From contig JAOAHE010000015.1 in the NCBI GenBank assembly GCA_026415415.1, positions 1 through 34,327 of the forward strand: a stretch of 34,327 nt of DNA, given 5' to 3'. Made by a program: the position numbers and the translations under genes. Origin of the DNA: Thermodesulfovibrionales bacterium (GTDB lineage Bacteria > Nitrospirota > Thermodesulfovibrionia > Thermodesulfovibrionales > Dissulfurispiraceae). The notes beneath the pieces were generated by a model, which was not told where the DNA came from, made no database searches, and was given only the letters and a program-made list of their open reading frames with translations. Of this stretch, positions 2,459-10,247 are shown piece after piece. Position 1 is the stretch's first letter, and each line of letters begins with the position of its first letter.

Positions 2459-4624
2459 TTAGGTTATTTTTAATTCATTTAAGTTTATTGGGAGTTTTCT
2501 TATTCTTTTTCCTGTTAGAGAAAATATAGCATTACAAATAGCAGGAGCTATAGGTGGCACGCCAGGCTCCCCAACCCCTTGAGGGGTTTCATTACTTTTA
2601 ACAATATAAACTTCTACCTTTGGCATATCTTTCATAGTAAGTATTTGGTAGTCATGGAAATTAGATTGCTCAACCATACCATCTTTAATAGTGATGGAAC
2701 CAAAAAGAGCTGCAGAAAGACCAAATACAATGCCGGACTCCATTTGTGCCTCAACTGTAGATGGATTTATAACCCTCCCGCAATCAATGGCACAAATAAC
2801 CTTACTTACTTTTAACTTGCCTGATCTATCTAAGGATACTTCTGCAACTTGAGCTACATAACTGCCAAAAGATTTATGTACTGCTATACCTCTTCCTTTT
2901 CCTTTTTCTAAGGAATTTTTCCAACCTGCCTTTTCAGCAGCAAGTTCTAAAACACTAAGATATTTAGGTTGGTTTTTTAGGAGGTTTTTTCTAAACTCAT
3001 AGGGGTCTTTCTTGGCTAAATGTGCTGCTTCATCAATGAAGGACTCTACAACAAAGGCAGTATGTGAATGTCCAACAGAACGCCACCATAGCACAGGAAT
3101 ATTTACGTTAGGGCTGTGTAAGTCAACATGTATATTAGGGATCTCATATGGTATATCATGAGCACCTTCTGTTGAAGTTTTATCAATACCATTTTTAGTC
3201 AGAGCCTGTTCAAAAGGGGTGCCTTTTACGATGGATTGTCCTACTATAGTGTGAAGCCATGAGTTAAGATTTCCCTTTTCGTCCAGTCCTGCTGATATTT
3301 TATGATAATACATGGGGCGATAATACCCCCCTTTAATGTCGTCTTGTCGGCTCCAAATAACTTTGACAGGTTTTTTGAGCTCTTTTGCAATATGGGCGGC
3401 TTCAGATACAAAATCTGAGTGTGGGTTTGCTCGCCTTCCAAAACCACCACCTAAGTAGGTAGTATAGAGAAAAACCTTTTGAGGATCAAGATTTAAGATA
3501 GAAGCTGCTGCATTTCTATCAAGTGTTTGCATCTGCGTTCCAGTCCATATATAAGCTCTATCTTCTTTATAATCAATGAGGCAATTTAGAGTCTCCATTG
3601 GGGAGTGGGATAGATAGGGAACTTCATACTCAGCAGTTATCTTTTTATGAGCCTTTTTGAATTGTTCTTTTGCTTCTCCATCCTTTTTAGCTATCAATCC
3701 TTCAGTGTTTGCAAGTCTGGAATAGGTAATCTTTAACTCATCTGTTGAGAGTTTTGAGTTTTCTCCTACATCCCATTTAATATCAAGGGCCCCCCTTCCA
3801 TTATAGGCAGACCAAAAATCTTTAGCTACTACTGCAACTCCAGAAGGTATTTGAATAATGTGCATAACACCGTTTACTTTCATAGCATTTTCAGCATTGT
3901 AGCTTTTGACTTTTGCTCCAAAAACTGGAGGGCGTGCCACAAGGGCTGTAAGCATTCCAGGGACTTTGACATCAATTCCAAAAATTGCTTTTCCGTTAAC
4001 TTTTTCTTTAGTATCAAGGTGTTTTGTAGGCTTACCGATAACCTTAAATGTATCAGGTGATTTTAGGACTATGTTATTAGGTGGTTCAACAGTAGAAGCC
4101 TTTTCCACAAGGGAACCAAAGGAAAGTCTCTTTTTTGATTTTTCATGAATAATAAATCCTTTTTCAGCTCGGCACTCTGAGGGGTCCACTTTCCATATTT
4201 GGGAAGCAGCATTGATGAGCATTAGGCGTGCTGCAGCTCCTGCTTTTCTTAATTGATCCCAGCAAGAACGAACGCTGCTACTGCCGCCTGTACCTTGAAT
4301 AGCACCCCACTCGGTGTGGTTATAAATCGGATTCACGGGAGCTGGTTGTATCTTGATTTTTGATAATTCACATTCTAATTCTTCAGCGATGAGCATAGGA
4401 AGAGAGGTATAAACACCTTGTCCCATCTCTGATTTGTTAATAATTAATGTTATTGTATCATCACTTCCTATTCTGATAAAGGCGTTTGGGCTAAAGGTTT
4501 TAGAAGTTACTTTTGCTTTACCTTCTGAATCAATGGGCATATAAAATCCTAAAAGTAGGCTTGTCCCCATGATAGCACCAGTTTTAAGAAAATCACGTCT
4601 GCTTAAGTTAATTATATCAGTCAT
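2459..4624 (-). CDS. iorB: Molybdopterin-binding large subunit, IorB-type (aldehyde/isoquinoline oxidoreductase)
   Basis: Large Mo-cofactor subunit of a two-subunit molybdo-hydroxylase of the xanthine oxidase family, which hydroxylates an aldehyde or N-heterocycle using water. It has 721 residues. Residues 8-14 (SRRDFLK) followed by a hydrophobic stretch form a Tat signal, so the complex should be exported folded to the periplasm. Mo-binding motifs are visible: GGGFGRR at 392-398, the WWRSVGHSH segment near 513-521, and QGVGEPG at 682-688, with Glu686 the expected catalytic base. The order and Tat signal fit the isoquinoline 1-oxidoreductase beta group, which lacks the FAD subunit and passes electrons to an external acceptor. 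No cytochrome gene is adjacent. It overlaps the small-subunit gene by four bases (ATGA). The substrate is unknown, so the symbol marks subfamily only. Confidence 0.88.
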
Positions 4625-5263: not shown

Positions 5264-6710
5264 ATGAAATTAAAATTTAAGATTGTGAATTTTATCCTAA
5301 TTTTTTTATCTATTTTGTTCACTTATGCTAAGGCTGTTGATATAAGAATACTTTATCTTGATGACTTTCATGGGTTTGCAGAAAGTTACAAGCCATTTGG
5401 GGTGGAAAAGCCTATTGGCGGAGCTTCTGTTTTTACCTCTATATTAAAAAAGCTTAAGAATGAAAAAACTACGCTTTTAGCTTCTGCAAGAGATATGATT
5501 CATGGTAATAACTGGCCAAATCCTACAGAAGGACGGTCTGTTATTAAGCTTATTAATTCTGTGGAGTTTGATGCGATGTTAGTAGGAAATCATGAACTTG
5601 ATTTTGGACAGGAGGTCCTTAAAAAAGAATATTTGAGGCAAACTTTTCTATTTTAGGGGAAATATTTATGTGTTGGGGGAGTAAAACAATTTATTATAAA
5701 AGAATTAGCTGGAATTAAAGTAGTATTAATAGGAGTAACTACTGAAAACCTTAGCTTCCCATCCAAAAAAATGTGGAATTTTTTCTGTCCATTGAAGCAC
5801 AATTACCAACTATCTGGGTGAGTTAAAAGTAAAAACTGATTTATTCATAGTTCTCTCATAGAGGTTTTCATAGTGGTAGAGTTCTTGCAAAGAGGGTAAA
5901 AGTTCATATTGTTGTAGATGGACATTCTCATATAAAATTAGAAAAATCTGCCCAAATAGGCAGTGTTATAATAGTGCAAGCATGGAAGCGTAGAAAAATC
6001 TTAGGAGTTTTAGTCTTTATGGTAGAAGAAGGTTAAATATTAAAATTTAGAGGTTATCTTGAAGACATAAATAGGAATAGCTAACTGAGACATAGATTGT
6101 GAGATTGTGAGAAAAAAAAGACCGATCTTGGCAATTTTTAGCAGACATTATAAGAGAAACAGCTGGTGCTCAAACTGCTATTATATTCTATTATATTATA
6201 TGGTGGAGGAATAAGGACGGGGATTAAAAAAGGAGAGATAAAGGTAAAGGCCATTTACCCGGTGTTACCTTTCAATAATTGCATAGTTGCTATTAAGATG
6301 ATAGGCGCAAAAATAAAGGAGTTACTTGATCATGAGGTTTCTGCCTATCAAGAAGGGGCGGGCAGGTTTCCACAGGTATAGGAAATCAAGTTTATCTATG
6401 AGCCAAAAGCAAAGTTAGGGGAAATGATAAAAGAGATAGTAATAGGAAATTTTATCTTAAAGAAGATGAAGAATATACTTTAGCTACAAACGACTTCTTC
6501 GTTGCAGGAGGAGCTGGTTTATTTCACATTCAGTGATGGATTGAGATCATTAAAAGACTATGAATTAATAAATGGTGTTATAAAGTCAGGGGAAATCGTG
6601 TATTTAGATGCAAGCAGGTATTTAAGAGATATTGTGGTGAATTATATAAAGAATAAAATGTTATAGATCCAAAAATTGAAGGAAGAATAAAAGAGTTATT
6701 AGAAAAATGA
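5264..6710 (+). pseudogene. Decayed 5'-nucleotidase / metallophosphatase (UshA-like)
   Basis: An exported bifunctional metallophosphoesterase/5'-nucleotidase that is no longer intact. The first 130 residues read cleanly: a signal peptide (about 1-24), LYLDDFHGF (metal-binding Asp and His), SARDMIHG and VGNHELDFG. A frameshift then ends the frame near 5654. Downstream, family motifs return in changing frames: VVDGHSHIKLE near 5915, GGGIRTGIKKGEI near 6200, and VLPFNNCIVAIKMIGAKIKELL near 6260, then stops again. The final fragment ends with a stop at 6708-6710. At least five disruptions are visible. Two active-site motifs (GNHE and GHSH) survive, so decay is probably recent. Confidence 0.85.
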
Positions 6711-6994: not shown

Positions 6995-7036
6995 TTACCT
7001 CCAAATCTTTTTAAGATTTGGAGGTAATTGATTTTT
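6995..7036. terminator. Strong hairpin terminator between convergent transcripts
   Basis: A perfect 14-bp stem (TTACCTCCAAATCT at 6995-7008 pairing with 7014-7027) with a five-base loop. Read on the plus strand it is followed by TTGATTTTT, giving an intrinsic terminator for the dead nucleotidase operon. Read on the minus strand it sits just after the stop of the ferredoxin-domain gene and may protect or end that message. Confidence 0.75.
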
Positions 7037-7042
7037 AAATGC

Positions 7043-7768
7043 TTAAATTTTTATTTTCTCTAAGATCTCACCTTTTGTACTGATTACTACCTCTTCTAAG
7101 GGTATATCTTTACCAGAGAGAGAGATAGCTTTTTCAATAATCTTGGATAATTTAGAGCAACAAGGTACTTCCATAGAAAGGACAGTGATATTTTTAATAG
7201 AGGAGGTAGAGAATATCTCAACAAATTTACGTAAGTAGTAATCAGTATCATCTAACTTTGGACATCCAACAAGTAATATTTTACCTCTTAGGAAGTCGTT
7301 ATGAAAATTGGGATAGGCAAAAGCGGTACAATCCGCGGCTACCAATAGATCAGCATCTTTTAGAAAAGGTGCTACAGCTGGCACAAGTTTTATTTGTAAG
7401 GGCCAGTTAGTAAGCTCAGAGACAGCCCTTGTTTGGATCTCTTCTGTTATTTGAGGTTTTGTTGTTGATATAAAATGCACTGAGGGACAGCAAAGCTTTT
7501 CTTCATGGTGGTGGCTTTGTTGTCTGCTTTTAAGATACTCTTCCACAGCCTCGGGGCTAAACTCTTCAGCTTCTCGTTCAATAAGCTTTAAAGCACCTTT
7601 TGGACATTCACCAAGACAGGCTCCAAGCCCGTCACAGTATATTTCTGATACTAATCTTGCTTTACCATCTATTATCTGTATAGCACCTTCTGCACAGGCA
7701 GGGACGCATTGACCACAACCATCACACAAATCTTCATTTATCTCTATTATTTTTCTTAATGTTTTCAT
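7043..7768 (-). CDS. 4Fe-4S ferredoxin-domain protein of the hcp operon
   Basis: Probable electron carrier working with hybrid cluster protein. The N-terminal ferredoxin domain has CDGCGQCVPAC (Cys15, 18, 21, 25) and a second motif CDGLGACLGECP (Cys45, 51, 55) in which the usual second cysteine is Leu48. A short His-rich linker (HHH near residue 85) precedes a cysteine-containing C-terminal region with AADCTAFAYPNF, LLVGCPKLDD and MEVPCC. This two-part architecture is familiar from anaerobes. The ATG at 7768 is preferred over a GTG at 7777 because GAGG lies eight bases before it. It starts two bases after the preceding gene's stop, so it is co-transcribed with hcp. Proposed electron donation to Hcp is inferred from position. 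Confidence 0.82.
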   Translation of the reverse strand: MKTLRKIIEINEDLCDGCGQCVPACAEGAIQIIDGKARLVSEIYCDGLGACLGECPKGALKLIEREAEEFSPEAVEEYLKSRQQSHHHEEKLCCPSVHFISTTKPQITEEIQTRAVSELTNWPLQIKLVPAVAPFLKDADLLVAADCTAFAYPNFHNDFLRGKILLVGCPKLDDTDYYLRKFVEIFSTSSIKNITVLSMEVPCCSKLSKIIEKAISLSGKDIPLEEVVISTKGEILEKIKI

Positions 7769-7770
7769 TT

Positions 7771-8469
7771 TTAACACCTCTTAAAAGATTTTTTTGCGAT
7801 TTTTTTTGCTGTATTTGTAAATAAATCTTTTTCAATTATTTCATCTAATTTTTCTACTTTATTACTTTCCTTTTTAAGATTTTTTTCAATATTAACAAGG
7901 GTAATTGCATCAAGTAAAATTTTTTGATTGATAGATACCTCGTCATCTGAATCTTTTTTAAGAGTTATTAAGTTACATACTTCTTCTATCATCTCCGGTT
8001 TAGCATTTAGTCTTGTAAGTATATTGCGGGCAGTATTTTGATTTTGCTCAACACTGTCAGTAATATCGTGAAAGTAAACTGCTGCAATAATAACAGCTGG
8101 GTTAGCTATCTCTTCTTTTATAATTTGCTCAACATATTTAACAGTTTTTAAGATTTTGCTAATTTTTTTAAAATCCTTGCCTAAGTATTTTTTTATCTCT
8201 ATAGCAAGGCGATCTTTAAAGAGCACCTCTTTTTCTGCAATTAATTCAGCAGGAAGGCTCCCAAGACACTGTTCGGCATATTTGCAGTAGGCAGCACAAC
8301 CGAAATCCATTTTTGGGTTAACGAACTCATAGCCACATTTTTTACAAGTGCGAGCTGGCTCGTCTTTAAAAAACTCAACAGCTTCTCCACATTTGGGGCA
8401 TTTTACATCATATATAGCAGAAAAGTCCCAAAAAGCTGTATCCTGTCCAGGGCATCTGATCATAGACAT
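7771..8469 (-). CDS. Zinc-ribbon protein with degenerate HD-like domain
   Basis: A 232-residue cytoplasmic protein. The N-terminal part has a CXXC/CXXC zinc ribbon (Cys24, 27, 42, 45) followed by a further Cys cluster (Cys58, 62, 68: FGCAAYCKYAEQC). The C-terminal helical part resembles HD phosphohydrolases: VYFHDI gives His134-Asp135, but the first His expected about 30 residues earlier is Ser or Lys (KKISKILKTV), and the His-rich motif expected after EEVCNLI reads LKKDSDD. Most metal ligands are therefore missing, suggesting a non-catalytic domain. ATG at 8469 has AAGGAG in front; an upstream in-frame ATG at 8514 does not. It lies between hcp and the ferredoxin gene. Its function is unknown; a sensor or scaffold role in nitrosative stress is speculation. 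Confidence 0.75.
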   Translation of the reverse strand: MSMIRCPGQDTAFWDFSAIYDVKCPKCGEAVEFFKDEPARTCKKCGYEFVNPKMDFGCAAYCKYAEQCLGSLPAELIAEKEVLFKDRLAIEIKKYLGKDFKKISKILKTVKYVEQIIKEEIANPAVIIAAVYFHDITDSVEQNQNTARNILTRLNAKPEMIEEVCNLITLKKDSDDEVSINQKILLDAITLVNIEKNLKKESNKVEKLDEIIEKDLFTNTAKKIAKKSFKRC

Positions 8470-8509: not shown

Positions 8510-8519
8510 CGCACTGATT

Positions 8520-10163
8520 CTATTTTAAGATCTCCTTTAAGTCTTCATCAGGAGTCTTTATAGGCGTTATATTAAAATTCTTAACAAGAACATTTAAAAC
8601 ATTAGGTGAAACAAAGGCTGGTAGCGACGGTCCTAATCTGATATTTTTGATATTTAAGTAAAGCAAAGTAAGTAGTATCGCTACGGCTTTCTGTTCATAC
8701 CATGAAAGAATTAGTGAAAGAGGAAGCTCGTTGACCCCTACATTAAATGCCTTTGAAAGAGCAAGAGCTATCTGGATAGCTGAGTAAGCATCGTTGCACT
8801 GTCCAACATCTAAAAGTCTTGGAATTCCACCTATGTTACCAAGATCTTTATCAAAAAACCTAAATTTACCGCATGCAAGAGTAAGAATTACTGTGTCTTT
8901 TGGTGCTTTCTCTACAAATTCTGTGTAATAGTTTCTACCAGGTTTTGCTCCATCGCATCCTGCAACTAAGAAGAAATGTCTGATATTTTTATTTTTTACA
9001 GCTTCAATGACTTTATCAGCGATGCTTAAAACTGTATTTCTGGCAAAGCCTACCATTACGTATTTGTCTTCAATATCTTCTGTAAACCCTTCCATAGAAA
9101 GAGCTTTCTCTATAACAGGTTGGAAATTTCCATCAGCTATATGTTTTACCCCTGGCCAACCTACTAAGCCCGTAGTAAAGATGTTGTCTTTATAAGAGTC
9201 AAGAGGTTTTTGAAGGCAGTTTGTAGTCATGACTATAGGACCTGGGAATTTTGGGAATTCTTTTTGTTGGTTTTGCCATGCTGTGCCAAAATGTCCATAG
9301 AAATGGGGATATTTCTTTAGTTCAGGGTATCCGTGAGTGGGCAACATCTCACCATGTGTATAAACATATATGCCTTTACCTTCTGATAGTTTAAGAATCT
9401 CATGTAAGTCTCTAAGGTCATGCCCTGACACTAATATAGCCTTTCCTTTTTTGGTGCCCAAAGGGACTTTTGTAGGTACAGGGTGACCATATGTTGATGT
9501 ATTGCCTGCATCAAGAAGTTCCATTGTTCTTAGATTTATCTCTCCACATTTAAGAACTAAATTAATCCATTCATTAATGGATAGATCTTTTCTTAAGGTT
9601 GTTGCCAATCCTTCATGAATAAAAGAGTAGACTTTATCATCTTCTTGTCCTAATATCTGAGCATGATCAGCATATGCAGATATTCCTTTAATTCCATATA
9701 TTAGTATCTGTTGCAAAGAGTGAATGTCAGGGTCTAAGGTTGGGTCTGCTTTAACTCCTACTTTAATGCCATCTTTGATCATCTCCTCTTTTGTTGATGG
9801 TAGATTGTAATTGGCTGCTGGTTCTGCAAAATAAGAGGTACCACCAGCATTTTTAATATTAGCTTTTAAGTCTTCCCTGAGTTGAATGCTTTTTTTGATT
9901 AACTCTACAAACCGATCAGGATCAAAATCTACATTAGTAAGAGTTGAGAAAAGGGCTTTTACAGTAAAAACATTGACATCTCTTTTAAGTATCCCAAGTT
10001 TTCTTGCCTCGGTCGCATAAAGAGAAAGCCCTTTTAAGGTGTAAACTAATAAATCTTGTAGTGCTGCCACATCTGGTTGCTTGCCACATACTCCGATTTG
10101 TGTGCATCCTTCCCCTCTTGCAGTTTGTTCACATTGATAACAAAACATCCTTTGCTCTGTCAT
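8520..10163 (-). CDS. hcp: Hybrid cluster protein (hydroxylamine reductase)
   Basis: Cytoplasmic iron-sulfur enzyme that reduces hydroxylamine in vitro and is linked to nitric oxide detoxification in vivo. The 547-residue protein carries the N-terminal cluster motif C-X2-C-X8-C-X5-C (Cys8, 11, 20, 26). Hybrid-cluster regions follow: SGHDLRDLHE, TTNCLQ, VAGCDGAKPG, LACGKFRFFD and DVGQCNDAYSA. Length and the tight N-terminal Cys spacing fit the class found in anaerobes. The start has AAGGAG eight bases before it. It leads an operon with the zinc-ribbon/HD-like and ferredoxin genes. Upstream lie a TATAAT box and a perfect TTGAC-N4-GTCAA palindrome, so activation by an HcpR-like regulator is likely. 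Confidence 0.95.
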   Translation of the reverse strand: MTEQRMFCYQCEQTARGEGCTQIGVCGKQPDVAALQDLLVYTLKGLSLYATEARKLGILKRDVNVFTVKALFSTLTNVDFDPDRFVELIKKSIQLREDLKANIKNAGGTSYFAEPAANYNLPSTKEEMIKDGIKVGVKADPTLDPDIHSLQQILIYGIKGISAYADHAQILGQEDDKVYSFIHEGLATTLRKDLSINEWINLVLKCGEINLRTMELLDAGNTSTYGHPVPTKVPLGTKKGKAILVSGHDLRDLHEILKLSEGKGIYVYTHGEMLPTHGYPELKKYPHFYGHFGTAWQNQQKEFPKFPGPIVMTTNCLQKPLDSYKDNIFTTGLVGWPGVKHIADGNFQPVIEKALSMEGFTEDIEDKYVMVGFARNTVLSIADKVIEAVKNKNIRHFFLVAGCDGAKPGRNYYTEFVEKAPKDTVILTLACGKFRFFDKDLGNIGGIPRLLDVGQCNDAYSAIQIALALSKAFNVGVNELPLSLILSWYEQKAVAILLTLLYLNIKNIRLGPSLPAFVSPNVLNVLVKNFNITPIKTPDEDLKEILK

Positions 10164-10231: not shown

Positions 10232-10247
10232 TTTGACTTAAGTCAAA
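10232..10247. promoter_or_regulatory. HcpR/FNR-type operator upstream of hcp
   Basis: TTTGACTTAAGTCAAA is a perfect 16-bp palindrome. Its core TTGAC-N4-GTCAA matches, from memory, the consensus reported for HcpR, the CRP/FNR-family regulator of hcp in sulfate reducers, and differs from classical FNR (TTGAT-N4-ATCAA) at one base per half-site. Its centre is about 42-43 bases upstream of the start predicted from the TATAAT box, essentially the class II activation position (-41.5). Confidence 0.75.

Follow-up and report, generated by a model that had tools for sequence, protein, structure and literature searches.

Here, we describe a gene (gene X) that lies between hcp and frdX in the window, the whole 34,327-nucleotide stretch of a Thermodesulfovibrionales genome analysed in this study, and that encodes a fusion of an eight-Cys domain and a pseudo-HD domain. 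On the basis of sequence comparison, we tentatively suggest, with somewhat less than even confidence, that its product is a non-catalytic protein with an accessory role in the hcp-frdX operon for nitrosative stress. Gene X would probably be a helper and not an enzyme, because its HD half has lost the metal site and its eight cysteines have been kept.

The operon is located on the minus strand and runs from a TTTGACTTAAGTCAAA palindrome through hcp, gene X and frdX to a hairpin. The first gene (8520..10163, minus strand, 547 aa) could be assigned with certainty from its sequence to the hybrid cluster protein: it scored 843 bits against the NCBIfam hydroxylamine reductase model NF003658 (equivalog cut-off 367), 782 bits against TIGR01703 and 578 bits against PF03063, and had the N-terminal Cys pattern C-x2-C-x8-C-x5-C. 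Gene X itself (7771..8469, minus strand, 232 aa) was delimited by its open reading frame and ribosome-binding site, with an ATG at 8469 preceded by AAGGAG and a stop at 7771. A GTG at 8514 is an unlikely start, because the orthologue in the sister species begins where the ATG does. The third gene (7043..7768, minus strand, 241 aa) codes for a FrdX-type ferredoxin with an N-terminal 2[4Fe-4S] region matched by PF00037/PF13187, and aligned over 96%, with 45% identity, to the 4Fe-4S protein from an hcp/Crp-Fnr/4Fe-4S cluster of Roseburia. Only 50 nt separate hcp from gene X, and the frdX start codon stands 2 nt past the gene X stop; thus, judging from this spacing, co-transcription of the three genes is very likely. 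A perfect 15-bp hairpin directly behind frdX (6995..7027) likely marks the end of the operon. The hcp gene therefore has its FrdX-type 2[4Fe-4S] partner as in other hcp-frdX operons, with gene X lying between them. In the sister species (G001), the operon order was conserved, again with an HcpR-type site ahead of it, and the gene X orthologue (64% identical) had the same position. The location inside an hcp operon with a ferredoxin gene, as proposed in the initial annotation, was thus borne out, both in the window and in the sister species. No Rfam match could be identified in the window. It should also be noted that pieces of a calcineurin-like 5'-nucleotidase gene, with a signal-peptide-like start and a GNHELDFG motif, were found on the plus strand at 5264-5656 and 6166-6381; this gene ends early and is apparently a broken gene adjoining the hcp operon.

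An HcpR-type palindrome, TTGACTTAAGTCAA (core 10233..10246), is present about 85 nt before hcp begins and fits the published HcpR consensus wyTTGACnnnnGTCAArw (PMC1274295), so the operon has the TTGACnnnnGTCAA-type upstream site of HcpR-regulated operons. The exact sequence TTGACNNNNGTCAA occurred once in the 1.89 Mb genome; as about two occurrences are expected by chance, this single-copy count alone proves nothing. There is good evidence, from sequence conservation, that the palindrome is functional, because six other genomes (seven with this one) have the same palindrome or a one-base variant ahead of hcp, at a distance of 75-108 nt. A single Crp/Fnr-type regulator was found in the genome (93% complete); its helix reads SRETVSR, for which the published rule predicts a CRP-like TGTGA site. 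A TTGA[CT]NTAAGTCAA-type palindrome was observed upstream of hcp in five loci of relatives (L110, L116, L118, L119 and L123). HcpR-type control seems to be widespread in this order, because the palindrome precedes hcp even in relatives without an adjoining frdX. In one genome of the order (L108 of G007, 3154-3840), a Crp/Fnr-type regulator gene is divergent from hcp behind the palindrome and may be considered a candidate HcpR of this order.

The N-terminal domain of gene X (residues 1-76; 8242..8469, minus strand) was defined by alignment as a CPG / CxxC / CxxC / Cx3Cx5C domain with eight cysteines: C6 (in CPG), C24/C27, C42/C45 and C58/C62/C68. All eight, together with the P and G of CPG, one Glu and one Ala, were invariant in the 20 sequences aligned (20/20), which included stand-alone proteins of about 80 aa; the N-terminal Cys clusters, described in the initial annotation as intact, are indeed so. 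The two CxxC knuckles of a zinc ribbon (C24-C27 and C42-C45) belong to this invariant set, and the best match to a curated family, PF09723, reached 19 bits vs a cut-off of 34.4. A plain FmdB-type zinc-ribbon protein could be ruled out, as the eight-Cys pattern and CPG differ and the scores are under the cut-off.

Stand-alone relatives of this domain, of about 80 residues, are encoded by many genomes from this order and phylum; a second phylum contributed two genomes with such proteins. With their pattern CPGS...CxxC...CxxC...CxxWCxxAxxCVG, they share with gene X the eight cysteines, the CPG and the conserved Glu, Ala and Gly, but they lack the HD half and had no hcp neighbour in the loci examined. 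Their genes adjoin unrelated genes (ubiX/ubiA, hemH, carB and MttB-like), so the eight-Cys domain is not specific to Hcp. A QDTxxW subtype was common only to the fusion proteins and two stand-alone members; one QDTxxW-type protein without the HD half is encoded between two MttB-like corrinoid methyltransferase genes (L149 of G809, 7601-7834). In three loci of the same order (L008, L025 and L031), the stand-alone gene is followed by a ferrochelatase-like (HemH) gene, and two of these loci also have a UbiX-like decarboxylase gene before it. No curated model covers this stand-alone family with its recurring hemH/UbiX-like neighbourhood.

The C-terminal half (residues 79-232; 7774..8235, minus strand) is homologous to the HD superfamily (PF01966). 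A profile of the three full-length members found in this study (the window protein, its sister-species orthologue and a protein from another phylum in genome G475) matched the solved HD hydrolases 3djb, 3b57 and 3gw7 (YedJ) with E values of 3e-4 to 4e-4 (3e-4 to 5e-3 when 2pq7 is included among the matches), and hhalign gave 96-99% probability over 142 columns between the gene X family and three intact small HD proteins. Gene X scored 13.7 bits against PF01966, below the cut-off of 22, and the intact relatives scored 25.6-37.9. Ligand positions were mapped by alignment to four intact relatives with H / H-D / H-H / D. In the window protein, the first His is replaced by Lys105 (adjoining Ser104), His134-Asp135 is kept, the His-His pair is replaced by Lys171-Lys172 (followed by Asp173) and the last Asp by Ile189. 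The initial annotation had already noticed the retained His-Asp pair and the replacement of the first His and the His-rich motif, both of which held up; the loss of the last Asp was absent from it, and the site is more degraded than was thought at that time. In the sister species, these positions are Arg105 / Tyr134-Asn135 / Asn171-Lys172 / Asp188, with the last Asp alone kept, and in G475 they are A103 / R132-A133 / P183-Y184 / D201. The H...HD...D metal-ligand pattern of PF01966 is thus absent from all three, and no ligand position has been kept in all of them.

In addition, this genus lacks the active-site loop of intact HD proteins (YGSxxGxxQE), and the C-terminal helix motif IxxxFxTxxxxxxA is still present. 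Because no ligand position is common to the three members and the loop is gone in this genus, the C-terminal half is, from these alignments, a pseudo-HD domain without a metal site, as the initial annotation had suspected. The possibility that the ligands have merely shifted was ruled out, since the alignments to the four intact relatives offered no alternative His/Asp set. A sequencing error or a pseudogene could also be ruled out: the frame is open in the sister species, which independently shows different ligand replacements. Structure prediction returned two single-sequence models of low confidence (pLDDT 48). The protein clearly exemplifies a pseudo-HD domain with a metal site that related proteins have lost in different ways.

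Comparison of the window with the sister species, in which synonymous sites were saturated, gave identities of 85.5% for the Cys domain, 79.5% for Hcp, 70% for FrdX and 53% for the HD half. Thus, by sequence identity, constraint within the operon is strongest on the Cys domain. The HD half is loosely but clearly constrained: 53% identity at synonymous saturation means purifying selection. No stop codon interrupts the HD half in any of the three full-length members.

We also analyzed the distribution of gene X. A search of 176 genomes of the order identified hcp in 75, and none of the hcp neighbourhoods examined beyond this genus (0/40 copies, from 39 genomes) contained gene X. By profile search, the full-length protein was present in 2 of the 230 genomes of the class, both belonging to this genus. 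In two genomes of a sister genus (g16), the same palindrome is followed by hcp-frdX, and no gene X relative lies between the two genes. Gene X is therefore not essential to Hcp, as most hcp-bearing relatives, and the hcp-frdX operons of g16, are without it. Sampling of about 400 genomes from a second phylum yielded one further full-length protein (G475), besides two Cys-domain proteins of the stand-alone type and an intact HD protein. In G475, gene X stands at the end of a CODH/ACS operon, in the order cooC, methyltransferase-like, cooC, CODH catalytic subunit, AcsB/D, AcsC, AcsV and X (names assigned by reading the sequences). This coincidence, a single case, is of interest given the homology between CODH and Hcp (PF03063; PMC10210160). 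The linkage to hcp expected from the initial annotation is thus, by gene order, real but narrow within the order and class searched: it was kept in the sister species, and it did not recur in the 40 other hcp neighbourhoods examined or in the only other full-length member found. No homologue of gene X was found in viral contigs, a plasmid search returned stand-alone HD proteins only and no fusion, and the sole return of a genome-contig scan was a zinc-ribbon protein of another kind.

NO induces both hcp and frdX by way of HcpR, which targets them, and C. difficile becomes NO-sensitive when either gene is knocked down (PMC12915319). Class I Hcp is a widespread NO reductase of anaerobes whose physiological electron donor and dedicated helper are unknown (PMC10210160). 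As an accessory protein, gene X might work as follows. Its Cys domain would bind metal, with the four Cys of the two CxxC knuckles probably holding zinc and C6, C58, C62 and C68 holding a second zinc or a Fe-S cluster. With the helical pseudo-HD domain as a docking surface, the Cys domain would be brought close to Hcp and/or FrdX, where it could help electron delivery to Hcp, or the keeping or repair of the Hcp clusters under NO. The accessory role is suggested by the conserved operon order, the 50-nt and 2-nt gaps, the conserved HcpR-type site, the Cys domain being the most constrained, the position of the G475 member at the end of a CODH/ACS operon, and the loss of the metal site, with different replacements, in all three full-length members. 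Counting against it are the many hcp-bearing relatives without gene X, including g16, the stand-alone eight-Cys genes beside unrelated genes, and the number of full-length members (n=3).

The main rival to an accessory role is that the eight-Cys domain alone matters and that the HD half is an eroding relic, left after its enzymatic job was lost. Such decay would agree with the HD half evolving faster than the rest of the operon (53% identity), with the loss of a different ligand set in each member and the deletion of the loop, as well as with the existence of stand-alone eight-Cys proteins; however, the HD frame has stayed open in all three members despite synonymous saturation between the sister species, and the C-terminal helix motif persists. 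We consider this explanation unlikely. Pseudoenzymes that bind ligands commonly arise when a fold is kept after its catalytic activity has been lost, and gene X sits in a stress operon. It might therefore be proposed that the pseudo-HD pocket binds a nucleotide or small molecule without hydrolysis and signals nitrosative or redox state via the Cys domain. Such a sensor appears rather improbable, given that no pocket residue is conserved at the ligand positions among the three members, that this genus has lost the active-site loop and that the domain profile search found no DNA-binding or other known output domain. Finally, an active metal-dependent phosphohydrolase using His134-Asp135 and non-canonical ligands would account for the His-Asp pair kept in the window protein, but this protein lacks the first His, the His-His pair and the last Asp, and the sister-species orthologue, at the same operon position, has Tyr-Asn instead of His-Asp; we regard this activity as highly implausible.

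A broader form of the accessory role would make eight-Cys/pseudo-HD proteins dedicated partners of the Hcp/CODH (prismane) superfamily, serving Hcp in one lineage and CODH/ACS in another by electron delivery or cluster handling, with the HD fold recruited as a dead docking domain. This generalization is speculative, and we would consider it distinctly unlikely on the sequences at hand.

Several known systems resemble parts of the operon described here. The small HD hydrolases YedJ (3gw7), Lin1889 (3b57) and 3djb, and stand-alone HD proteins on Acinetobacter, Pusillibacter and Phocaeicola plasmids, are homologous to gene X over about 140 residues and have the same C-terminal motif; they keep H / HD / (HH) / (D or E)AD, whereas gene X has one His-Asp pair and lacks the active-site loop. 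Operons with hcp and frdX were first described in Desulfobacterota and Bacillota. An eight-Cys/pseudo-HD gene between hcp and frdX was not described in PMC545781, PMC1274295 or PMC12915319, although an unnamed gene precedes frdX2 in the hcp1 locus of Desulfuromonas (PMC545781), and a literature search on HD-domain genes beside hcp or acsV returned nothing relevant. Each part is thus of a known kind, and the combination, with a multiply lost HD site in an hcp operon, was not found described in the literature searched. The hcp-frdX operons under HcpR in delta-proteobacteria and Clostridia (PMC545781, PMC1274295, PMC12915319) share with the window hcp, a FrdX-type 2[4Fe-4S] gene and a TTGACnnnnGTCAA-type site ahead, whereas the window adds a third gene, eight-Cys/pseudo-HD, between the two. 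An hcp operon with both a ferredoxin and a conserved Cys-rich pseudoenzyme provides two concrete candidates for the electron donor or helper of Hcp.
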